From Leptolyngbya sp. PCC 6406 (GTDB lineage Bacteria > Cyanobacteriota > Cyanobacteriia > Phormidesmidales > Phormidesmidaceae): a stretch of DNA of 64,000 bases. Below are positions 406 to 11,515 of this stretch, in pieces. Both the position numbers and the translations under genes were made by a program. Every line of letters starts with the position of its first letter. Position 1 is the first letter of the stretch. The notes beneath the pieces are model-generated. The model was not told the origin of the DNA, did no database searches, and was given only the letters and a program-made list of their open reading frames with translations. The stretch is taken from the NCBI RefSeq assembly GCF_000332095.2, contig NZ_KI913949.1:2729602-2793601 (forward strand). The letters run 5' to 3'.

Positions 406-744
406 TTAATGGTGATGATCTCTTTCTTGTTCTGCCATCATCTGATTAATTCTCTCATCGATGGCTTGAGCATCCAGCAGTCCTTTATCTGCGAGCAGCT
501 TTTCACAGGCCATGACCCAATGTTCGTAATAAGTCACTGCGCCAGGGGCGGCCTTTTCTGTCGCCGCAATTGCCGATGACAAATATTGAGTCCATTCAGG
601 CCAGGTATAGTGTTCAAGGATTGCCAGGTGATTCACAATGGCAAATGCCTTGGCCTCCCAGGGCGCGTTGAACACGGGTTCCTGATCTTGATCGCGCATT
701 CCAGAATTGGGCATTAGGGCAGCAGACTCTTGGGGTGATTGCAT
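406..744 (-). CDS. Nitrile hydratase accessory protein (locus A)
   Basis: 112 residues, last gene of the locus A operon, starting 5 nt after the preceding stop. It resembles the N-terminal half of a nitrile hydratase beta subunit (EPVFNAPWEAKAFAIV, then YYEHWVMACEKLLADKGLL), which is typical of the small accessory/activator proteins encoded beside Co-type enzymes. These are thought to carry the alpha subunit during cobalt insertion and cysteine oxidation. It ends in an acidic, His-rich tail (ERDHHH) that could bind metal; that is inference. It is paralogous to the accessory gene of locus B at 10469-10834, which is slightly longer. The alternative, a third beta-type structural subunit, cannot be excluded from sequence alone. 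Confidence 0.8.
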   Translation of the reverse strand: MQSPQESAALMPNSGMRDQDQEPVFNAPWEAKAFAIVNHLAILEHYTWPEWTQYLSSAIAATEKAAPGAVTYYEHWVMACEKLLADKGLLDAQAIDERINQMMAEQERDHHH

Positions 745-749
745 CAGCT

Positions 750-1118
750 TCAGGGTGCGTCTAAATGGTCGTCAAACAGATCAATGTAGAGAAAATCTTT
801 GGCAGAGGCATCTGGCCCCCAGAGTTCTTGGGCGGCAAAGCGCACACTGTAGACATATTGGGGTTTGGTCTCCAAGCGCTGGCCTAGGGTGTCTGGAAAG
901 ACATAAACTCCGTGCACCTTGGTAATGGTGCCTATTTTCCCCCGCACATAACGGGGCAGGCGAGTGTAGGTGGCCGGGTGCATAACCTTCGCTCGAATGA
1001 TATCCTCCACCTGAAACCGGGGCGGATGATTGCTCACGCCACGGCAGTCAACGCCAGACTGGAGCAGGGCTTTAGCCTGGTCTACACCCATGCACTCATT
1101 GCTGGTTTCGATGGCCAT
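750..1118 (-). CDS. Nitrile hydratase beta subunit, C-terminal half (split gene)
   Basis: 122 residues corresponding only to the C-terminal SH3-like domain of nitrile hydratase beta: FQVEDIIRAKVMHP, then LPRYVRGKIGTI, then YSVRFAAQELWG. The Arg in YVRGK matches the conserved beta Arg that contacts the oxidised active-site cysteines in known enzymes. The ATG at 1118 has an AAGGAG-type ribosome site overlapping the end of the preceding gene. The N-terminal half is a separate gene 5 nt upstream (1124-1429), so the beta subunit is made as two chains, as in thiocyanate hydrolase and toyocamycin nitrile hydratase. The two halves lie in different frames (ends at 1124 and 1118) with a stop and a fresh ribosome site between them, so this looks like a real split rather than a sequencing frameshift. 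Confidence 0.85.
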   Translation of the reverse strand: MAIETSNECMGVDQAKALLQSGVDCRGVSNHPPRFQVEDIIRAKVMHPATYTRLPRYVRGKIGTITKVHGVYVFPDTLGQRLETKPQYVYSVRFAAQELWGPDASAKDFLYIDLFDDHLDAP

Positions 1119-1123
1119 TGTGG

Positions 1124-1429
1124 TTACTCTCCTTGTGCCAACTCGGCCATACGTTGCTCAATTTCTTCGGGCGTGACCAGGTTGTGCTCAGTAATCAAGA
1201 GCTCCAGGGCATAGAGCCACCGTTCGTAGTAAGAAGAACTGAGATAGGCACCCGGTGGCATCCGTTCACAGGCATGGCGAGTTTCATCAACTGGGAAAAA
1301 GTTGCAGAAGGTGGCAAAGCTCATGGCAAAGACCTTAGCTTCCCAGGCAGAATGGAAGACGGGCTCATCCGGTTCCATGGGAATCGACCCCATGCCGTGC
1401 ATGCCGCCCATGTCGTGGGGGCCATTCAT
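1124..1429 (-). CDS. Nitrile hydratase beta subunit, N-terminal half (split gene)
   Basis: 101 residues from the ATG at 1429. A TTG two codons further upstream is less likely, because a near-perfect AGGAGG lies 8-9 nt before the ATG and overlaps the alpha stop codon. It opens with MNGPHDMGGMHGMG, the classic nitrile hydratase beta N-terminus, followed by PVFHSAWEAKVFAMS and YYERWLYALELLI. It ends at AELAQGE with a true stop, before the SH3-like domain that the next gene supplies. With the alpha and C-half genes it should form an (alpha, beta-N, beta-C) heterotrimer. The MNGPHDMGG opening looks more like nitrile hydratase than thiocyanate hydrolase beta. Substrate is unknown. Confidence 0.85.
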   Translation of the reverse strand: MNGPHDMGGMHGMGSIPMEPDEPVFHSAWEAKVFAMSFATFCNFFPVDETRHACERMPPGAYLSSSYYERWLYALELLITEHNLVTPEEIEQRMAELAQGE

Positions 1430-1440
1430 GATCAATCCTC

Positions 1441-2058
1441 CTAAGCTGCAAGGGGTGAAGGTGATTCAGGGGGCTGAACTTTCGCGGTGCCAACCATGGC
1501 GTTGCGGGTCACTAAACCCGCCAGGGACTCTTCAGACATGCCCTCGGTACCTTCTGGCCGTTCTGGCAGTACCAGATACCGCAAATCAGCATTGCTGTCC
1601 CAGACTCGAATTTCAACGTCATCGGCAATTTCTAGCCCAAACTCTTTCAGCACTTGACGCGGTTCGATCACAGCCCGAGACCGATAGGCAAAGGATTTGT
1701 ACCAGGTAGGCGGCAGGCCCAAAATCCCCCAGGGATAGCAAGAACAGAGGGTGCAAACAATTAGGTTGTGGACCTGGGGGGTGTTTTCGACCACTACCAT
1801 GTGTTCGCTAGAAAATCCAGTGAGACCCAGTTCTGCGATCGCACTCGTCCCATCCACCAGCAATCGCTGCTTGTATTCGGTGTCCACCCAGGCTTTAGCC
1901 ACAATGCGCGCCCCATTGTGAGGTCCAATTCGGCTTTCATAGGCATCGATGATGGTGTCCAGGGTAGCTGGATCAACAATACCTTTTTCGATGAGAAGGG
2001 ACTCAATTGCCTTGACACGAAGGGCAATATCGGCTTCTGAATGAGAAGAATGGGCCAT
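1441..2058 (-). CDS. Nitrile hydratase alpha subunit, cobalt type (locus A)
   Basis: 205 residues from the ATG at 2058; an upstream ATG at 2082 and a TTG at 2085 are also in frame and cannot be excluded. The metal-binding motif CTLCSC lies at residues 102-107 and continues [14 protein letters not shown]. Thr at the second position of CTLCSC is the mark of Co-type rather than Fe-type enzymes. The family hydrates nitriles to amides with a low-spin Co(III) bound by two backbone amides and three cysteines, two of them oxidised. It is the first gene of a four-gene minus-strand operon with 5-nt gaps. It is clearly paralogous to the alpha at 9816-10445. Because its partner beta is split, thiocyanate hydrolase gamma is an alternative name. 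Confidence 0.88.
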
Positions 2059-2336: not shown

Positions 2337-3011
2337 ATGGCAAAAGTTGAAACCTACACTCATCTGTTCGAACTTCCTTTGGAGGATACGGCGCTGCTGA
2401 TTATCGACATGCAAAACGATTTCTGTCATCCTGATGGCTTCAATGGAAGTGAACTCAACCTGGATTTAACCTCAATCAGAGCTATTATTCCATCAATTCA
2501 GACTCTTCTGGACTGGTCTCGAAAATTGGGGCTGATGGTTATTTTTACCCGTGAAAGCCATCCTCCTAATTTGTCTGATTTGACCTCTAGCAAACAACAA
2601 CGATATACCAACGCCGGTTCCCCCATTGGCGAACTCGGAAAGATGGGCCGATTTCTAGTTCAAGGAGAAAAGGGTGTTGAAATCATTGATGAATTGCGCC
2701 CTTTGCCCCATGAAATACAGCTAGATAAACCGGCCCATTCTTGCTTTGTCAACACCCAACTCGACCATAAACTCCAGAACCAAAATATCACTCACTTAAT
2801 CATTGTGGGTGTAACAACTCAATGCTGTGTTCTGGCAACCTACCGCCATGCCAGCGATCTGGGCTATTACTGCCTGCTGCTGGATGACTGCTGCGCCACC
2901 TTCGACCGTGCAGATCACGATGCCACCATCCGCATCCTGCAATCTGAAGGGGGCGTTTTGGGGTGGGTTGCGCATTCCTCAATGCTTTACCATGACTCGC
3001 TTGCCCATTAA
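2337..3011 (+). CDS. Isochorismatase-like cysteine hydrolase
   Basis: 224 residues, a complete isochorismatase-family fold. The catalytic triad is visible: Asp in LLIIDMQNDF near residue 26, Lys in LDKPAHSCF, and the nucleophilic Cys in GVTTQCCVLAT, followed by the family's cis-peptide region. Members are nicotinamidase, N-carbamoylsarcosine amidase, ureidoacrylate amidohydrolase, biuret hydrolase and isochorismatase itself; this sequence does not tell me which reaction it performs. It lies between nitrile hydratase locus A (divergent) and a NitT/TauT ABC importer (same strand, about 300 bp downstream). I infer that it may hydrolyse the amide or carbamoyl product of the hydratases, since no classical amidase-signature amidase is visible nearby. 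GAGAG lies just before the ATG. Confidence 0.85.
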   Translation: MAKVETYTHLFELPLEDTALLIIDMQNDFCHPDGFNGSELNLDLTSIRAIIPSIQTLLDWSRKLGLMVIFTRESHPPNLSDLTSSKQQRYTNAGSPIGELGKMGRFLVQGEKGVEIIDELRPLPHEIQLDKPAHSCFVNTQLDHKLQNQNITHLIIVGVTTQCCVLATYRHASDLGYYCLLLDDCCATFDRADHDATIRILQSEGGVLGWVAHSSMLYHDSLAH

Positions 3012-3312
3012 ATCCCGACTCTAGACCGTACCCTCCCCAAGCCAAATCATGATGGAAAACCATGAATATTGCGAAATGCGCAGACAAAAAAGGACTTGGT
3101 TGTTCTATAAGCAAATAATGGCAGCATTTTTTGCGAAAGTTGTGCCTCTGGCTACAAAAAATACGCGCCGATGCCTTTACTGTCAAAACCAAGCAGGTCG
3201 TTTGCCCCACCACTTCTTCTGGTATCAGGGCGTTCAGTTGAAACGTTGAAACAGCGACTCATAGTCAGGTTTATTGGTCTCGTCGAGCTTTGAGATGTCG
3301 AGGTGTGTTCCC
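3012..3312. other. Intergenic region with no recognised gene
   Basis: About 300 bp between the cysteine hydrolase and the ABC binding protein. Short open frames here have no recognisable family features. I see no clear terminator or riboswitch fold. Confidence 0.5.
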
Positions 3313-4359
3313 ATGTTGCCGAAGCAGACTTTCATTTTTTTCGTACTGAGCACTTTGTTTGTGGGGGGCTGTGGAGTATCACCCCCCGCCGAGACGACCG
3401 CCCCCCCCTTGTCAAGCAGTGCAGAAACAGCACCTTCAGATGAATTGGTAGCGATTAAAGCGGGTCACTTAGTGGCGCTGGATATGGCTCCATTGTTCGT
3501 GGGTGTGGAATCGGGCTGTTTTGAGCAGAATGGGTTGGCCGTGGAAACGGTATTCTTCAGCAATCCTGGCGATAACAATGCAGCCCTGGCTGGGGGGCAG
3601 ATCGACTTCAGCACCAATCCCTTTACGCTGCCGTTTTTTGCCGCCAATAGCGGTGTACCCATTAAGACGGTGGCCGCAGCCGGGGGATGGGGGGTGATGC
3701 AGGTGATTATTGACAGCGAATACGGGGTCGAATCCATCGCTGATTTAGCGACCTTTGTGGCCGACAACCCTGACCAGAAATTAAAAATTGCCACCCTACG
3801 GGGAGACACACTGGAGTTAATTTTGGTGGACGGGCTTGAGCAGGCAGGCATCGACCCAGATGCGTTTGAAATGGTTTACTTTGACGATCTACTAGCAATG
3901 GTCGATGCCTTTCGTCTAGGAGAAGTCAACATCCTCAGCCACATTAAGCCCTACACCACACAGTTTGTAGTCACTGGTGATGCCAACGTGATCACCGATA
4001 ATGCTGAGGTCTGGTCGCCGACCACGCCGAATACTGTGGTTAGCGTCTTAGAGAAAACCCTCAATGAGCGACCTGAAGTGGTGAAAGCCTACATCCAGGG
4101 ATTGCAATGTGCGGCAGAAATCATTAATACCGACCCCGATCAGGCCATTGAACTATTGGTCAGTGGCAACTACTACCGGGTTGAGGATGATGTGTTGCTG
4201 ACTGCCTTCAAAACCCAACCCTCTCCCATCACGTTTACCCCTGACTTAGATGCTGTCCAAACTGTGGTCGATAAGATGGTGCAGTTGCAATACATTCAGG
4301 CCGATGTGCCAGCAAAGGATATCTTTGATGTCTCTATTGTGAAAGAGCTAGAGCAGTAG
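3313..4359 (+). CDS. ABC transporter substrate-binding lipoprotein, NitT/TauT (SsuA/NMT1-like)
   Basis: About 348 residues from the ATG at 3313, which is chosen because a lipoprotein signal follows at once: MLPKQTFIFFVLSTLFVGGC, with the lipobox Cys after GG. Earlier in-frame ATGs (3274, 3295) would put extra residues before the signal. The mature protein fits the NMT1/SsuA fold of the nitrate, taurine, sulfonate and cyanate binding proteins: IKAGHLVALDMAPLFVG near the start, GQIDFSTNPFTLPFF, and AAEIINTDPDQAIELL near the end. The permease begins 1 nt after its stop. Such proteins bind small anions or organic N/S compounds in the periplasm. The context suggests a nitrile-related or thiocyanate-like ligand, which is inference. 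Confidence 0.85.
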   Translation: MLPKQTFIFFVLSTLFVGGCGVSPPAETTAPPLSSSAETAPSDELVAIKAGHLVALDMAPLFVGVESGCFEQNGLAVETVFFSNPGDNNAALAGGQIDFSTNPFTLPFFAANSGVPIKTVAAAGGWGVMQVIIDSEYGVESIADLATFVADNPDQKLKIATLRGDTLELILVDGLEQAGIDPDAFEMVYFDDLLAMVDAFRLGEVNILSHIKPYTTQFVVTGDANVITDNAEVWSPTTPNTVVSVLEKTLNERPEVVKAYIQGLQCAAEIINTDPDQAIELLVSGNYYRVEDDVLLTAFKTQPSPITFTPDLDAVQTVVDKMVQLQYIQADVPAKDIFDVSIVKELEQ

Positions 4360-4360
4360 C

Positions 4361-5173
4361 ATGGTAAAGGGCACCGCTGGCTGGGAAAGTTCTATTTCGC
4401 GATCGCTGTTGCCCCTTACTTGTGGGTTAATCTCTTGCGCTATTTTTGTGGGAGCTTGGGAAGTTATTGGTGCGAATCCTGAAAATCCTATTTCTCAGGT
4501 GCTACCGCCCCCATCAAAGTTTCTACCAGTTCTGTTTGAGAATGACTTTAAGATTGGTCTGGGATCTCAATCCGCATCCATTTACCAGTCTGTAACCGTC
4601 ACCCTGGTTCGAGTCCTTTTGGGGATGACGATTGCCTTTGTGGGCTCAATTGTTTTTGGTCTGCTGATTAGCCTGTCAAAGTGGTCAGAGTTGTTTATTC
4701 TGCCGATTTTAGGTCTGATCGCTCCCATCGCTCCAATTGCTTGGGTGCCGCTGGCATTAGTCATCTTTGGAGTCAGTAATTTGACTGCGGTGTTCATTGT
4801 CTTTATGGGAGTCTTTTTTACCCTGACCATTGCCACCGTAGCCGAAATCAAAAGAATTCCCGACAACTTACTAATCACGGCAGAAAACCTAGGGGGAGGA
4901 AATTTTGCCCGATGGAAGTTTGTTGTTATTCCTGCTATCTTACCTGGGGTATTTACCCTGCTCAGACTAAACTTTATCGCCGCCTGGATGGCTGTACTAG
5001 CGGCTGAGATGACTGGGTTAAGAGATGGCCTTGGCACCGTTGTCATGACCGGACGAAACCTGTTCAACAGCAACCTGATTTTGCTGGGTATTTGTATTAT
5101 CGGCATTACTGGATTTGCAATTGACCGACTACTACTGGTAATTCAAAGAAGGTTTTTCTGGTGGAGAATCTAA
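4361..5173 (+). CDS. ABC transporter permease, NitT/TauT (SsuC/TauC-like)
   Basis: 270 residues, hydrophobic, with about six predicted membrane spans and the binding-protein-dependent permease fold. The EAA-like coupling loop is visible around AENLGGGNFARWKFVVIPAI, which docks on the ATPase. It starts 1 nt after the binding-protein stop and ends 3 nt before the ATPase start, so the three genes form one operon. Length and architecture match SsuC/TauC/NrtB permeases, which work as homodimers. Confidence 0.87.
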   Translation: MVKGTAGWESSISRSLLPLTCGLISCAIFVGAWEVIGANPENPISQVLPPPSKFLPVLFENDFKIGLGSQSASIYQSVTVTLVRVLLGMTIAFVGSIVFGLLISLSKWSELFILPILGLIAPIAPIAWVPLALVIFGVSNLTAVFIVFMGVFFTLTIATVAEIKRIPDNLLITAENLGGGNFARWKFVVIPAILPGVFTLLRLNFIAAWMAVLAAEMTGLRDGLGTVVMTGRNLFNSNLILLGICIIGITGFAIDRLLLVIQRRFFWWRI

Positions 5174-5176
5174 GCA

Positions 5177-6013
5177 ATGAGCAGTCATTTATCAGCTCTG
5201 AATGAATTCCACCAACAGCCCATTCTAGCTTGTCAGAATGTGGCAAAAACCTTCCAAGTTACTCGAAAATCTCCATTTATCGCTCTACAAAAAATTGATC
5301 TAAAAGTCGCAAAGGGAGATTTTGTTACCATTTTGGGTCGTTCAGGTGGAGGAAAGTCAACCCTGCTCAAGTTGTTGGGCGGTTTTATACCTCCCACGTC
5401 TGGACAGATTTTATTTCATGGGGTGCCATTACAGGGAATAACGCCCAAAATCGGTATGGTGTTTCAGGAAAACACCCTATATCCCTGGTTAACTGTCGAG
5501 CAAAACATTGGTTTTGGTTTCAAAGTGCGGGGAAAACAAAAGCGCCACTATGGCTTGCGCGTTCAAGAGGTGATGGAACATGTTGGCCTGACCCAGTCCG
5601 GAAACCTTTATCCTCATCAACTTTCAGGGGGAATGAAACAGCGGGTTTCCATTGCCCGATCCCTGGCCATCCAGCCCGATGTGCTACTGCTGGATGAACC
5701 CTTTTCGGCTCTGGATATTCAATTGCGAAGACGACTGCAAAAATTTCTGCTGAATATCTGGCAGGAGACTGAAGCCACTATGGTGCTGGTAACCCATGAT
5801 GTAGAAGAGGCGATATTGCTAGGGCAAAAACTCATCGTAGTTGGTGGCCAACCGGGACACATCATTGCAGAGGTGGATATCTCTGCCTCGGCCTTTAGAG
5901 ATCGGTACGACCGGCAATTTTTAGAACTTCAGCAACATCTAGAGGGGGTGATTGGCGAAGAACCTGACATGATGGAAAAGTCCCGAGACTTAGCGGCTGT
6001 ACAAAGTAAGTAG
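5177..6013 (+). CDS. ABC transporter ATPase, NitT/TauT (SsuB/TauB-like)
   Basis: 278 residues with all ABC ATPase motifs: Walker A GRSGGGKST, Q-loop VFQENTLYPWLTVEQN, signature LSGGMKQR, Walker B VLLLDEPF and switch His in LVTHDVEEA. The Q-loop and the VEEA after the switch His are typical of the SsuB/TauB/NrtD group. Last gene of the importer operon; two strong dyads follow about 75-120 bp downstream. The C-terminal stretch of about 60 residues after the switch His is the usual short tail and lacks the CpmA-like extension of NrtC. Confidence 0.9.
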   Translation: MSSHLSALNEFHQQPILACQNVAKTFQVTRKSPFIALQKIDLKVAKGDFVTILGRSGGGKSTLLKLLGGFIPPTSGQILFHGVPLQGITPKIGMVFQENTLYPWLTVEQNIGFGFKVRGKQKRHYGLRVQEVMEHVGLTQSGNLYPHQLSGGMKQRVSIARSLAIQPDVLLLDEPFSALDIQLRRRLQKFLLNIWQETEATMVLVTHDVEEAILLGQKLIVVGGQPGHIIAEVDISASAFRDRYDRQFLELQQHLEGVIGEEPDMMEKSRDLAAVQSK

Positions 6014-6214: not shown

Positions 6215-6709
6215 TCACTCCTGGCTGATTCTAGCCGGATACTGAGCCTTATAGATTTTTAAAATATTTCTAGAATTTAACCCCGTGACGACGCCCTTGT
6301 TCTTTAGCCAGTTGATAAACGACAGGAGGTCTTCATTGTCTTTGTAAATGTACTCCAGCATGATATCGAACTCACCTGTCACAGCGGATAGATAACTAAT
6401 ACTTTCCATGCTGACTAGTTCTTCTAAGGCCGTTCCAAAAAAGTCCGGCTCGACCTTCAGTTCAATATAGGCAACATTCTCATACCTCACTTTGCCGGTA
6501 TTTATAAAAGCACTGATGGTAATAATTCCATCATCCAGCAGCCGCTTCATCCGGTATCTGATAGTTGCTTCTGGAGTATCAATTGAACGGGCAATATCAC
6601 GGTAGGGAATCCTACCATTTTGTTGCAATAGCTCAATAATCTTAAGGTCAAGACTATCGACTTCATGGTCTCGGAGATTCTCTATGGTGACATTACTGCT
6701 AGTCATCAT
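6215..6709 (-). CDS. Lrp/AsnC-family transcriptional regulator
   Basis: 164 residues. The N-terminal helix-turn-helix is clear: LDLKIIELLQQNGRIPYRDIA followed by TPEATIRYRMKRLLDDGII. The C-terminal half has the RAM/AsnC ligand domain, with VTGEFDIMLEYIYKDNEDLLSF matching the usual G-x-(F/Y)-D pattern. These proteins sense amino acids or other small N compounds and bind DNA as octamers or dimers. It is transcribed away from the CobW gene and convergent with the importer. I infer it controls one or both nitrile hydratase loci; Lrp-type regulators are known beside nitrile and amide catabolic genes. No operator was identified. Confidence 0.87.
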   Translation of the reverse strand: MMTSSNVTIENLRDHEVDSLDLKIIELLQQNGRIPYRDIARSIDTPEATIRYRMKRLLDDGIITISAFINTGKVRYENVAYIELKVEPDFFGTALEELVSMESISYLSAVTGEFDIMLEYIYKDNEDLLSFINWLKNKGVVTGLNSRNILKIYKAQYPARISQE

Positions 6710-7136: not shown

Positions 7137-8111
7137 ATGCGGAGGGTATTATCCTTGCAAGATCTGACTCCGACCACCGTTTTGACGGGTTATCTGGGTG
7201 CTGGCAAGACGACCCTGCTCAACTACATCCTCACCGCCCAGCACGGCAAGCGGATTGCCGTTATTGTCAACGAGTTTGGTGAAGTCGGTATCGATCATCA
7301 GCTCGTGATTGATGCCGATGAAGAAATCTTTGAGATGAATAACGGCTGCATCTGCTGCACGGTGCGGAGTGATTTAATTCGTATCGTCAGCAATCTGATG
7401 GAACGCTCTGGGGATTTCGACTACCTCATGATTGAAACGACGGGATTAGCCGACCCAGCCCCTGTGATTCAATCCTTTTTTGTGGATGAGGTGATGCGAT
7501 CGCGTCTCCTACTGGATGCCATTGTCACCGTTGTCGATGCCAAATATATCTGGGATCACTGGGACAGCAGCGAAGCTCAAGAGCAGATCGCCTTTGCTGA
7601 TGTGATTCTGCTGAACAAGGTCGATCTGGTTTCGCCCCCAGTGCTGGAAGAACTGGAGCAACGGATTCGGGGTATGAATGCGATCGCCAAAATCCAGAAA
7701 ACTCAGCATTGCCAGATCCCTCTGGATACCGTGCTGGGAGTCGGCGCATTCGACCTGAAGAACGCCCTCAGCATCGATCCAGAATTTCTGGACGAAGATG
7801 CCCACGATCATGACGAGACCGTTTCATCGGTCGCGATTCAGGAGCCTGGGGTGGTGAACGGAGATCACTTCAATCGCTGGCTTTATCAACTGGTGCAGGC
7901 CCGAGGTCCCGACCTTTTCCGCATGAAAGGCATTCTGGATATGGATAGCGAAGACCGGCGATTCGTATTTCAAGGGGTGCACATGACCCTGGATGGTCGC
8001 CCCGGTAGGCCCTGGCAACCGGGGGAGATGCGCCGGAATGAATTGGTCTTTATTGGCCGCAACTTAGATGAAGCTGAACTGCGACGTGGTTTTAGCGAGT
8101 GCTTGATGTAA
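7137..8111 (+). CDS. CobW/P47K-family metallochaperone GTPase
   Basis: 324 residues. Walker A GYLGAGKT is at residues 18-25, the family metal motif CICC at 71-74 and the guanine-specificity motif NKVD at 160-163. A short acidic His segment (DEDAHDHDE, about 219-227) may bind metal, and a CobW C-terminal domain follows. COG0523 proteins use GTP hydrolysis to deliver metals; homologues beside nitrile hydratases act as activators. Because both hydratases here have Co-type motifs, delivery of cobalt is the likely role. It precedes a DUF1097 gene by 29 nt and nitrile hydratase locus B by about 700 nt, all on the same strand. A TTG at codon 7 is an alternative start. Confidence 0.9.
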
Positions 8112-8140
8112 CCCAAAAATAATTCGGAGCGCAATCTGCT

Positions 8141-8674
8141 ATGAAACAATCCGAAGCCTTAACCCTTAGCATTGGCGTGCTCGGCGGTGTCGATGTGTTC
8201 TTGACCGCAACGGTCATCCCTGTCCCGGTTTGGGTGACCTTTACCGCCTGGGCTTCCTTCTTTATTGTGGGGGGCGGCATACAGGGATTTATTAAGTCTA
8301 TTTCTTGCAATATTACGGGGATTATTATTGCGGCCCTGTCCCTATGGGCGATCGACTTAATTGGCCCCAATCCCCTGGTCGCCGCCATTTGTGTGGGGAT
8401 TGGCAGTGCGGCTATGGTGCAGGCTTCTAAACTTCCCTTCACCTACGGCATTACTCCGGCCATTGTGTGGGGCTTTTCCCAAACCGTTGGCACAGTTGCG
8501 GTCACTGGTCTGCCCGTGACCGCTGCCTTGCCCAATAACCCGGTCTTAATTGCGATCGCCGCCATGATTTTGGGCAACATCTTCGGCTACCTTTCCGAAG
8601 CCTGGGGCAAGGCGATGACAACCGCCCCCGCCATAGCTACCGCTGGGGAATCCGCCAGGAAAATCCAAAGCTAA
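8141..8674 (+). CDS. DUF1097 family membrane protein
   Basis: 177 residues, strongly hydrophobic, about five membrane spans separated by short loops. The segment VPVWVTFTAWASFFIVGGG matches the DUF1097 pattern (E. coli YcdZ-like). Function of the family is not established. It lies 29 nt after the CobW gene and about 140 nt before the nitrile hydratase beta gene, so it probably belongs to the same transcription unit. I infer a possible role in uptake or export of a substrate, product or metal of the hydratase. Confidence 0.75.
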   Translation: MKQSEALTLSIGVLGGVDVFLTATVIPVPVWVTFTAWASFFIVGGGIQGFIKSISCNITGIIIAALSLWAIDLIGPNPLVAAICVGIGSAAMVQASKLPFTYGITPAIVWGFSQTVGTVAVTGLPVTAALPNNPVLIAIAAMILGNIFGYLSEAWGKAMTTAPAIATAGESARKIQS

Positions 8675-8812
8675 ACCATTGCCAAGTCCAGTAGGGCGTT
8701 TTTGGCTAGGGCAGGCTTAAGATTCTGGCTTGGATAGGCTACCGCTCAATTCTCGATATCTCAATCCGGTAAATTCTCGACATCACAATCAGACAAAGGA
8801 GCTAAGACGCGG

Positions 8813-9559
8813 ATGAAATTACAACACTCCCTGGGAGGGCTGGAAGGACTCGGCCCCGTTGACTTTCAGAAAAAAGTATTCGTTGAACAGTGGGAAAAGC
8901 GCATTTTCGGCATCCATACAGCCATGATGAGCTTAAGTGCTCATTTAAAAGATGCCCTGCCCCAATATCCCATTGATCAAGTGCCGACCACCTTTAAGGA
9001 TATCTGGACCTGGGCGGATCTCCGGCGGGGGGCAGAAGCCATGAATCCCTTCGACTATTTTAAGCTGCGCTATTACGAAAAGTGGCTGGGAGGGATTTCA
9101 GGATTCTTTGTTGAGAAAGGCTATATTTCCCAAGCAGAGTTAGACGAGAAAACCAAGTTCTATCTGAAGGAGGGTAACGTCGATCCGACTCCACTACCTG
9201 AGAAGGAACTCCCTGCCGTAGACGAACAAGTGGTCAAGTATTTAGAGCTGGGCGACTCCCCCAAGCGGGATGTGGGTATCCAACCCAAATTTTCGGTGGG
9301 GAACGCCGTCATTGTCAAAGATCTGCCCGTGGCTGAGCATACCCGATTGCCAGGGCATTTACGTGGTAAACCTGGGGTGATTGATCTGGTTTATGAAGGC
9401 TGCTATGCCTATTTTCCAGGCCCTTCTGATGGCTTAGGGCCTGCTCAACCCAGCTACAGTGTGCGGTTTGATCCTAAGGATATTTGGGGTGAAGATTTGG
9501 CCGAACCAGGTTCCACTTTTTATGCGGACATATTCGAGATGTATCTCGATGCTGACTAA
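8813..9559 (+). CDS. Nitrile hydratase beta subunit, full length (locus B)
   Basis: 248 residues, a normal single-chain beta. The helical N-terminal part has LGGLEGLGPVDF (residues about 7-18), VFVEQWEKRIFGIH and YYEKWLGGISGFFVEKG. The C-terminal SH3-like domain has FSVGNAVIVKDLP, LPGHLRGKPGVI and YSVRFDPKDIWG. The Arg of LRGK corresponds to the conserved active-site Arg. AAAGGAG lies about 12 nt upstream of the ATG. Gene order is beta then alpha, as in most Co-type operons, but a 141-bp MITE separates beta from alpha. Compared with locus A, whose beta is split, this copy has the standard architecture. Confidence 0.92.
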   Translation: MKLQHSLGGLEGLGPVDFQKKVFVEQWEKRIFGIHTAMMSLSAHLKDALPQYPIDQVPTTFKDIWTWADLRRGAEAMNPFDYFKLRYYEKWLGGISGFFVEKGYISQAELDEKTKFYLKEGNVDPTPLPEKELPAVDEQVVKYLELGDSPKRDVGIQPKFSVGNAVIVKDLPVAEHTRLPGHLRGKPGVIDLVYEGCYAYFPGPSDGLGPAQPSYSVRFDPKDIWGEDLAEPGSTFYADIFEMYLDAD

Positions 9560-9568
9560 ACGTTCATG

Positions 9569-9709
9569 GTAACCGTCCCCTGAGCGGAGTCGTTGGCTTT
9601 GCCGCCCCAGCGGGGCTAGGGGACATTCTGGTTGGGTTTTGGCTTTCTCCCTTCGGGAGACGTTTCACGAACGACTTCGCTCAGCCAGCGTAATTCCTTG
9701 GACGGTTAC
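9569..9709. mobile_element. 141-bp MITE with 10-bp inverted ends and 9-bp target duplication
   Basis: The element begins GTAACCGTCC and ends GGACGGTTAC (perfect 10-bp inverted ends) and is flanked on both sides by ACGTTCATG (9560-9568 and 9710-9718), a perfect 9-bp direct duplication. A second inverted match inside (GAGCGGAGTCGTT against GAGCGAAGTCGTT) extends the symmetry. It has no coding capacity, so it was presumably moved by a transposase encoded elsewhere. It lies only 9 nt after the nitrile hydratase beta stop and about 100 bp before alpha, so it may form an RNA hairpin or weaken coupling of the two subunits. Confidence 0.9.
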
Positions 9710-9815
9710 ACGTTCATGCAGGATTGCTATATCAGCCCGATCACCCGTGAAATATTCGATCCATTTTGGGTCTGATTCTTGCGGTAATTCTTGAAAAAAG
9801 TGAGGTAAGTTTTTC

Positions 9816-10445
9816 ATGTCAATTCCTGGAGACGAGCAATTTAGCTACAGTTCCAATCGTGAGTTGGAAAGTGCGGCAAAAGTCAGGGCACTCGAAGCGC
9901 TGCTGATTGAAAAAGGAATTATCGGTAGTGAGACAGTCAATACAGTGCTGGACTACTTTGAGTCCAAAATGGGGCCTTTTAATGGGGCCAAACTTGTGGC
10001 AAAAGCCTGGACAGATCCAGAATTCAAGGAGCTGCTGATCAAAGATTGTAATGCTGCCTGTAGTGCCCTGGGCATGACCACTGGGATGTCTGGCGCAGAA
10101 GGGGAACACATGCGGGTGGCTGAGAATACCCCCGCTGTCCATAACTTGATTATTTGTACCCTGTGTTCCTGTTACCCCTGGCCAACCTTAGGGCTGCCCC
10201 CTTACTGGTATAAAGATCCGACGTTTAGGGCTAGGGCGGCCCGTGAGCCGCGCAAGGTTTTGCAAGAGTTTGGCCTGGATCTGGATGGCGCTGTCGATAT
10301 TCGGGTATGGGATAGCAGTGGCCAGATTCGCTGGTGGGTGTTACCTGAGCAACCTCCTGGTACCGAACATCTGAGTGAAGAAGAGCTGGCTACCCTCGTC
10401 ACGCCAGAGGCGATGATGGGCGTTGCTAAGGTCACCGCTTCTTAG
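9816..10445 (+). CDS. Nitrile hydratase alpha subunit, cobalt type (locus B)
   Basis: 209 residues with the metal site CTLCSC at 114-119 followed by YPWPTLGLPPYWYK. As in locus A, the Thr marks a Co-type enzyme. NTPAVHNLIICTLCSC and REPRKVLQEFGLDL are family signatures. GTGAGG lies upstream of the ATG at 9816. It should pair with the beta at 8813-9559 as an alpha2-beta2 enzyme that hydrates nitriles to amides. It differs from the locus A alpha by small insertions (for example TTGMSGAEGE before the metal site), so the two are not recent duplicates. Confidence 0.93.
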   Translation: MSIPGDEQFSYSSNRELESAAKVRALEALLIEKGIIGSETVNTVLDYFESKMGPFNGAKLVAKAWTDPEFKELLIKDCNAACSALGMTTGMSGAEGEHMRVAENTPAVHNLIICTLCSCYPWPTLGLPPYWYKDPTFRARAAREPRKVLQEFGLDLDGAVDIRVWDSSGQIRWWVLPEQPPGTEHLSEEELATLVTPEAMMGVAKVTAS

Positions 10446-10468
10446 ATGAATGAGAAATAACAGTCCCC

Positions 10469-10834
10469 ATGTTTACCCGATTTGAACATTTTGCTGCCTC
10501 TAGCTTGATGGGTAGCGAAGAGTCTCCCCCTCGGGAGAATGGGCACCTTGCCTTCAATCGCAGTTGGGAGCAGGTTGCGTTTGCCCTTGCTATTGCCCTG
10601 TCAAAAAGTGGTCACTATGAGTGGGAGGATTTTCGCAAAAATCTAATCGCCACTATTGGTGAATGGGAGTCAGACCATGACTTGTCAGATCCTACCTGGG
10701 ATTACTACCAGCGCTGGTACACCGTTTTGGAAAAGCTCGTTCTAGAAGCGGGTCTAGTCGATAAATCAGAACTGGATGAGAAATCATCTGCTTTGCTGAA
10801 CTGCGCCAGTACCCATGAAGAGCCAACTCATTAA
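10469..10834 (+). CDS. Nitrile hydratase accessory protein (locus B)
   Basis: 121 residues resembling the N-terminal half of a beta subunit: LAFNRSWEQVAFALAIALSKSGHYEW, then YYQRWYTVLEKLVLEAGLV. This is the pattern of the small activators encoded after alpha in Co-type operons, which form a complex with alpha during cobalt insertion. It starts 23 nt after the alpha stop and is followed 33 nt later by the HupE-like gene. Paralogue of 406-744. Confidence 0.83.
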   Translation: MFTRFEHFAASSLMGSEESPPRENGHLAFNRSWEQVAFALAIALSKSGHYEWEDFRKNLIATIGEWESDHDLSDPTWDYYQRWYTVLEKLVLEAGLVDKSELDEKSSALLNCASTHEEPTH

Positions 10835-10867
10835 AACACCTGAGACACTGTAGAGGAGAGATTCACC

Positions 10868-11515
10868 ATGCCTACTAGATCTTTTGCGAACCTGAGCCCA
10901 AAACTCATCATGGGTGCTCTGGCAGTAATTGGCTCATTACTACTTTGCGCCCCGGCTATGGCCCATCACCCTTTTGGTGGTGAAGCACCGACTAATGCCA
11001 TTGAAGGGTTTCTATCTGGAGTTGGACACCCAGTAATTGGCCTTGATCACTTGGCATTTATCATTACTGTCGGTTTATTAGCGGCCATTTTTAATCGAGG
11101 CTTACTCATTCCAGTGGCTTTTGTGGTGACTTCGCTGCTGGGCACAGTAGTACATCTTTTGAATGTCAATTTACCGGCACCAGAATTCTTCATTTCTGCA
11201 TCGGTATTGGTGTTTGGATTACTGTTAGCCATGAAAAATTCATTGCCATCAGGAATTATGATCGCCCTGGCAGCAGCAGCAGGTCTATTTCACGGCTATG
11301 CCTATGGAGAAGCCGTTGTGGGTGCAGGTATGCCATCCTTGCTGGCCTACCTGATCGGGTTTTCTACCATTCAAATGGCGATCTCTGTCGGTGTTTATCT
11401 GACAGCAAAGCAGCTTGGAGCTAGCAGTGATGTAAAACCTTTAAATCTGCGCTTTGCTGGGTTTACCCTGATGGGTATTGGCGCGGCTTTCCTCTCTGCC
11501 ACAGTTTTAGGCTAG
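10868..11515 (+). CDS. HupE/UreJ-family metal permease, probably cobalt
   Basis: 215 residues with an N-terminal signal segment ending near APAMAHHPFGG, then about six membrane spans. The conserved HPVIGLDHLAFI motif, with its His and Asp, and the second His region LFHGYAYGEAV identify HupE/UreJ, a family of Ni(II) or Co(II) transporters. A GAGGAGAG ribosome site precedes the ATG. As the last gene of a Co-type nitrile hydratase operon, cobalt uptake is the most likely job. The TAG stop lies within the CTAG boundary of a dispersed repeat element. Confidence 0.88.
   Translation: MPTRSFANLSPKLIMGALAVIGSLLLCAPAMAHHPFGGEAPTNAIEGFLSGVGHPVIGLDHLAFIITVGLLAAIFNRGLLIPVAFVVTSLLGTVVHLLNVNLPAPEFFISASVLVFGLLLAMKNSLPSGIMIALAAAAGLFHGYAYGEAVVGAGMPSLLAYLIGFSTIQMAISVGVYLTAKQLGASSDVKPLNLRFAGFTLMGIGAAFLSATVLG

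Follow-up and report, generated by a model that had tools for sequence, protein, structure and literature searches.

Two genes for one beta chain: a conserved split in a predicted nitrile hydratase of Leptolyngbya sp. PCC 6406 and other cyanobacteria

Genes at the locus

The stretch of DNA analysed here (the window) comprises 64,000 nucleotides of Leptolyngbya sp. PCC 6406, whose 5.78 Mb genome is assembled in three contigs with a completeness of 99.96%. Four co-directional genes on the minus strand occupy the first 2.1 kb of the window and encode an alpha chain, two proteins that correspond to the N- and C-terminal halves of a nitrile hydratase beta chain (beta-N and beta-C), and an activator. 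These genes and their neighbours are listed by position in the window.

406-744, minus strand: activator, an accessory protein of the P14K/NhlE type, 112 aa (TIGR03889, PF21006)
750-1118, minus strand: beta-C, a gene of its own for the SH3-like C-terminal half of beta, 122 aa, 13.75 kDa (PF02211, PDB nitrile hydratase beta chains)
1124-1429, minus strand: beta-N, a gene of its own for the N-terminal half of beta, 101 aa, 11.5 kDa (PF21006, PDB 3qxe_B, conservation)
1128-1133, minus strand: AAGGAG ribosome-binding motif for beta-C, within the final codons of beta-N (sequence)
1441-2058, minus strand: nitrile hydratase alpha chain, cobalt type, 205 aa (PF02979, TIGR01323, PDB match, claw motif CTLCSCYPW)
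2337-3011, plus strand: divergent isochorismatase-family cysteine hydrolase (PF00857, 5.9e-41), conserved beside the split genes
3274-6013, plus strand: ABC transporter with NMT1-type binding protein, permease and ATPase (PF13379/PF09084, PF00528, PF00005), a conserved neighbour
6215-6709, minus strand: Lrp/AsnC-type regulator (PF13412/PF13404), a conserved neighbour
7137-11515, plus strand: another nitrile hydratase locus, in which beta is fused, comprising CobW GTPase, DUF1097, beta (8813-9559), alpha (9816-10445), activator (10469-10834) and HupE/UreJ (Pfam/NCBIfam), in a distant clade of the tree

Beta-N runs from an ATG at 1429, directly preceded by TTAGGAGGATTGATC, to a stop codon at 1124; the listed start, at 1435, is a TTG that precedes this ATG by six bases, and the ATG is the better choice. 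The closing codons of beta-N, GCACAAGGAGAGTAA, contain the AAGGAG motif for beta-C, which starts with an ATG at 1118, five bases past the beta-N stop and in a different frame, and ends at 750. The open reading frame coordinates and the sequence thus bear out an earlier reading of this DNA (the preliminary description), according to which the N-half ends in a real stop and the C-half has its own ATG and AAGGAG. The motif ahead of beta-C is kept in near relatives. At the other end of the operon, a transposase-like (IS-like) reading frame, recognised by eye, occupies positions 1-321, adjoins the activator gene and runs past the left edge of the window.

Each of the two small proteins corresponds to one part of a full beta chain. 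PF21006 is the only Pfam domain in beta-N (1.1e-33) and PF02211 the only one in beta-C (4.9e-29), and the fused beta at 8813-9559 carries both. On the NCBIfam beta model TIGR03888, which has 226 positions, beta-N spans 1-99 and beta-C spans 115-224, each at about 106 bits and below the full-length cut-off of 152.2. Pfam and NCBIfam therefore agree with the earlier statement that each half matches only its own part of the full beta. Among proteins of solved structure, beta-N aligns with residues 1-93 of 3qxe_B and scores 78.9 bits to the P. putida cobalt nitrile hydratase beta chain versus 23.6 to that of thiocyanate hydrolase, and beta-C aligns with residues 126-224 of nitrile hydratase beta, with 89 bits to the cobalt-type chain versus 28.7 to the thiocyanate hydrolase chain. 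The AlphaFold model of beta-N is of moderate quality (pLDDT 64), its top structural matches in the PDB being nitrile hydratase beta chains with weak E-values; that of beta-C (pLDDT 40) is too poor for use.

The alpha chain is recognised by PF02979 (1.7e-89) and by the nitrile hydratase alpha equivalog TIGR01323 (307 bits versus a cut-off of 249.85), and its best PDB match is a cobalt-type nitrile hydratase alpha chain, at 311 bits versus 160 for thiocyanate hydrolase. Its claw motif CTLCSC, followed by YPW, has the Cys-x-x-Cys-Ser-Cys form of the superfamily, and both beta domains are present in adjacent genes, with both claw-binding arginines. The activator scores 70.3 bits on TIGR03889, against a cut-off of 46, and lies beside the structural genes, as a member of the P14K/NhlE family. 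It consists of a lone beta-N-like domain (PF21006, 5e-14), so that lone N-type domains occur twice in the operon, in the structural beta-N and in the chaperone activator.

Recurrence and conservation of the split

The split is found well beyond the window genome. Beta-C is present as a separate open reading frame in 17 of the 65 genomes of the order, at 64-100% identity, and beta-N is likewise a separate gene; three further genomes from two other families in a sample of the class have the same split, which was confirmed. In total, at least 20 sampled cyanobacterial genomes and a plasmid of Gloeocapsopsis dulcis have the alpha, N, C arrangement, and a scan of named genomes found it in Halomicronema, Nodosilinea, Leptolyngbya, Phormidesmis, Elainella, Phormidium, Vasconcelosia and Gloeocapsa. 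In the RefSeq record of the G. dulcis plasmid, nthA and the accessory gene flank two neighbouring genes for SH3-like proteins. All the cyanobacterial split loci have their genes in the order alpha, N, C, and the activator follows wherever the sequence extends far enough. No fused member of this clade was found in the order, class and named-genome samples, and every fused beta in those genomes belongs to other, distant types.

The junction itself is variable: the gap from the N stop to the C start ranges from -4 to +218 nt among relatives, and all three stop codons and all three relative frames occur. Both halves are strongly conserved under purifying selection, with dN/dS values of about 0.04-0.10, like those of alpha, though these are rough values from near-saturated synonymous sites. 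Sequencing error and chance are excluded because many independent assemblies contain this junction; a shared error is excluded because stop codon, gap and frame vary between relatives, and programmed frameshifting to join the halves was rejected for the same reason. A gene decaying into a pseudogene, or a frameshift introduced by sequencing, might be suspected from the failure of either half alone to reach the full-length beta cut-off and from the IS-like transposase fragment adjoining the operon, but was rejected as exceedingly improbable given the same separation with different junctions in at least 20 independent assemblies, the low dN/dS of both halves, and the presence of separate start codons and a ribosome-binding motif. 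The split is thus confirmed as a real and stable variant, and the initial proposal that the beta subunit is encoded as two separate genes holds on the evidence of the reading frames, Pfam and the recurrence in independent assemblies.

Phylogeny and comparison with known enzymes

We placed these enzymes in an unrooted tree of 46 loci, built on their concatenated N, C and alpha sequences and rechecked without five long-branch rows. The cyanobacterial split enzymes are monophyletic (100/100) among enzymes with the alpha, beta, activator order, which supplies the monophyletic split clade that the preliminary description had named as the sign of a stable split. The alpha chain of the window is placed with the P. 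putida-type clade. The cyanobacterial split clade is distinct from the fused type found in cyanobacteria and also from a second, SCN-like split group, comprising loci of Microvirga, Polymorphobacter, Streptomyces and Planktothrix, that has a CTLCSC-YPR motif, lacks an adjacent activator gene and sits with the thiocyanate hydrolase of Roseomonas.

The arrangement is not confined to the window genome or its phylum. Within the alpha-beta-activator group, Rhizobium, Agrobacterium, Aminobacter sp. MSH1 (on pUSP2) and a Rokubacteria MAG share the alpha-N-C-activator order and the cut point, but in these the two halves overlap, as TGATG or TAATG, and they do not group with the cyanobacterial enzymes in one clade. 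Monophyly of all splits in the alpha-beta-activator group is rejected both with all rows (p 0.0023) and without the long branches (p 0.0028); a grouping of cyanobacteria with Aminobacter alone is not rejected (p 0.32), and one with Rokubacteria is not firmly rejected (p 0.06). Six changes between split and fused states are needed on the tree, or four without the long branches. Because a single clade of splits is rejected, the beta gene must have undergone either several fissions or a fission followed by re-fusions.

Alternatively, the split may have been inherited from split enzymes of the thiocyanate hydrolase or toyocamycin type rather than having arisen within the fused P. putida-type lineage, a history that we regard as improbable. 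When the five long rows are omitted, an AU test does not reject the cyanobacterial and SCN-like split rows falling together on one side (p 0.12), and an unrooted tree gives no direction that would distinguish fusion from fission. The same grouping is nevertheless rejected with all rows (p 0.00025), the cyanobacterial clade falls inside the alpha-beta-activator group with 98/96 support without the long branches, and its activator, YPW motif and gene order are all of the P. putida type.

Several other loci in the comparison merit mention. In the plasmid loci L114 (2699-3369) and L117 (2663-3330), the gene tables list an alpha and an accessory gene and no beta, and the sequence contains the two halves with a TGATG/TAATG overlap. 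A plasmid of Roseomonas marmotae (L119, 2026-2877) has ScnB-like and ScnA-like halves fused into one open reading frame of 283 aa, the reverse of the split. A nitrile hydratase-like locus of genome G444 (L052, 12551-13872), whose long branch lies close to the SCN-like group, has fused N and C parts and an alpha with CTLCSCYPR; no accessory gene was found beside this alpha. Split SCN-like nitrile hydratases in the order N, C, alpha follow an asnB-type gene on plasmid p1 of Planktothrix agardhii PCC 7805 (L111, 3042-6227) and in genome G312 (L060, 4748-8070), both with the look of a natural-product cluster.

Of characterized systems, the cobalt nitrile hydratase of P. putida NRRL-18668 (alpha, beta, P14K), for which the activator and the alpha-beta-activator order have been described (PMC3511329), is among the nearest solved structures to the window chains and shares their gene order, CTLCSC claw, claw arginines and MNG.HD.GG beta opening. 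It differs in having one two-domain beta polypeptide, with His71 and His147, where the window enzyme has two genes, with Arg and Tyr. Streptomyces rimosus ToyJKL is similar by description, with three chains, an (alpha beta gamma)2 plan and nitrile hydratase chemistry (PMC8574189, PMC12648386). The Streptomyces split enzyme in our tree (L110), unlike the window enzyme, falls in the SCN-like clade with a YPR motif and no adjacent activator, and a beta-C search of the named genomes' contigs gave no Streptomyces match. The window operon lies outside any deazapurine antibiotic cluster such as that of ToyJKL, its neighbours being a hydrolase, an ABC transporter, Lrp, CobW and a second nitrile hydratase.

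The remaining comparison is with the thiocyanate hydrolase of T. thioparus (ScnA, ScnB, ScnC; PDB 2dd4), which has three chains, the same interdomain division of beta and Tyr147, but differs in its YPR motif, gene order, clade and substrate. It seems unlikely to us that the window operon encodes a thiocyanate hydrolase, or an enzyme acting on some other small anionic nitrile, that shares the three-chain plan by chance. Three chains with beta in two are indeed found, together with a Tyr at beta 147 and an Arg at beta 71 as in the T. thioparus and Roseomonas thiocyanate hydrolases, and an NMT1-type ABC transporter adjoins the operon; a NitT/TauT transporter lies downstream of the Thiobacillus scn genes (PMC5328954). 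However, the alpha chain scores 193.9 bits on the thiocyanate hydrolase gamma model TIGR03887, short of the cut-off of 291.45, but exceeds the cut-off of the nitrile hydratase alpha model, its motif is CTLCSC-YPW rather than YPR, the clade and gene order are different, and the conserved neighbours include an amidase-like hydrolase. Identity with thiocyanate hydrolase was rejected on the gamma cut-off, the YPR motif and the placement in the tree. The contrast with thiocyanate hydrolase drawn at the outset is upheld by the cut-off, the YPW motif and the tree, but the MNGPHDMGG opening that had been cited for it is not special, MNGxHD.GG being ordinary in P. putida-type beta chains. Likewise, the order alpha, N-half, C-half, accessory does differ from that of thiocyanate hydrolase but amounts to the P. 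putida order with a divided beta gene.

Active site, assembly and possible role

Taken together, the sequence comparisons make it very likely that the operon encodes a cobalt-type nitrile hydratase of P. putida gene order in which beta is cut at the interdomain linker, giving three structural chains. The division point would be the linker between the helical N-domain and the SH3-like C-domain, and the chains would have masses of 22.4 kDa (alpha), 11.5 kDa (beta-N) and 13.8 kDa (beta-C). In nitrile hydratases, two arginines of beta, R52 and R157 by P. thermophila numbering, make salt bridges with the oxidised cysteines of the alpha claw and are proposed to drive subunit swapping (PMC7193024). 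In the window proteins they correspond to R51 of beta-N (P. putida Arg52) and R53 of beta-C (P. thermophila beta Arg157), and these claw arginines, R52 and R149 in P. putida numbering, are invariant in all 22 cyanobacterial rows, as are the beta-N equivalents of P. putida beta Glu56 and Tyr68. Because the two claw arginines are on separate polypeptides, the active site is expected to need three chains, and neither beta half should suffice alone, since each gives one claw-binding arginine.

Toyocamycin nitrile hydratase, with its three chains, forms an (alpha beta gamma)2 hexamer (PMC8574189), and on the same plan the window chains should associate noncovalently as an (alpha, beta-N, beta-C)2 heterohexamer with a mass of about 95 kDa. 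In this assembly alpha would hold the cobalt claw CTLCSC; the P14K-type activator would load cobalt into alpha, after which the two beta chains would take over. Beta-N and the activator, whose family is homologous to beta-N, may take turns on alpha.

The hydrolase, the NMT1-type ABC transporter, the Lrp-type regulator and the second nitrile hydratase with CobW form a neighbourhood that is kept in most relatives. These conserved neighbours fit the scavenging of nitrogen from an imported nitrile, which is the most likely role. A small imported nitrile would be hydrated to its amide, which the isochorismatase-family hydrolase would then break down for nitrogen; this hydrolase, which falls below the cut-off of the NCBIfam biuret amidohydrolase model, is a possible amidase for the amide product.

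The substrate, however, could be something other than an ordinary nitrile. In all 22 cyanobacterial split rows, Arg and Tyr stand in place of P. putida beta His71 and His147, of which His147 is reported to be important for activity (PMC8278588), and among the sequences compared Tyr at beta 147 occurs elsewhere only in thiocyanate hydrolases. A different substrate is possible because Arg71 and Tyr147 replace His and Tyr147 is like that of thiocyanate hydrolase. More speculatively, and with clear reservations, one may picture a beta chain that on several occasions was divided, and perhaps joined again, at a single linker, and a cyanobacterial line whose stable three-chain enzyme has beta-N and the activator changing places on alpha during cobalt loading, with Arg71 and Tyr147 suiting it to a substrate unlike those of known nitrile hydratases.

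Three-chain enzymes are already known in this superfamily, namely thiocyanate hydrolase and toyocamycin nitrile hydratase. A review of the family distinguishes six gene organisations, and the order alpha, N-half, C-half, activator is absent from them (PMC7193024); in the open-access literature we found no description of a split beta in the alpha-beta-activator type. A further three-chain lineage, with an activator and close fused sisters, suggests that the beta chain is modular and its linker dispensable. With claw-binding arginines on separate chains, these enzymes could serve as a natural test system for cobalt maturation and subunit swapping, and the natural split point may be usable in enzyme engineering. 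There is also a gap in annotation, as the genes are named SH3-like domain-containing proteins in RefSeq or are missing from gene tables. Finally, in the beta-C proteins of the cyanobacterial clade (window 750-1118), Cys25 is invariant and Cys9 nearly so, both within an N-terminal extension derived from the linker; the fused betas of Pantoea and Klebsiella that were inspected have no Cys in the corresponding linker.
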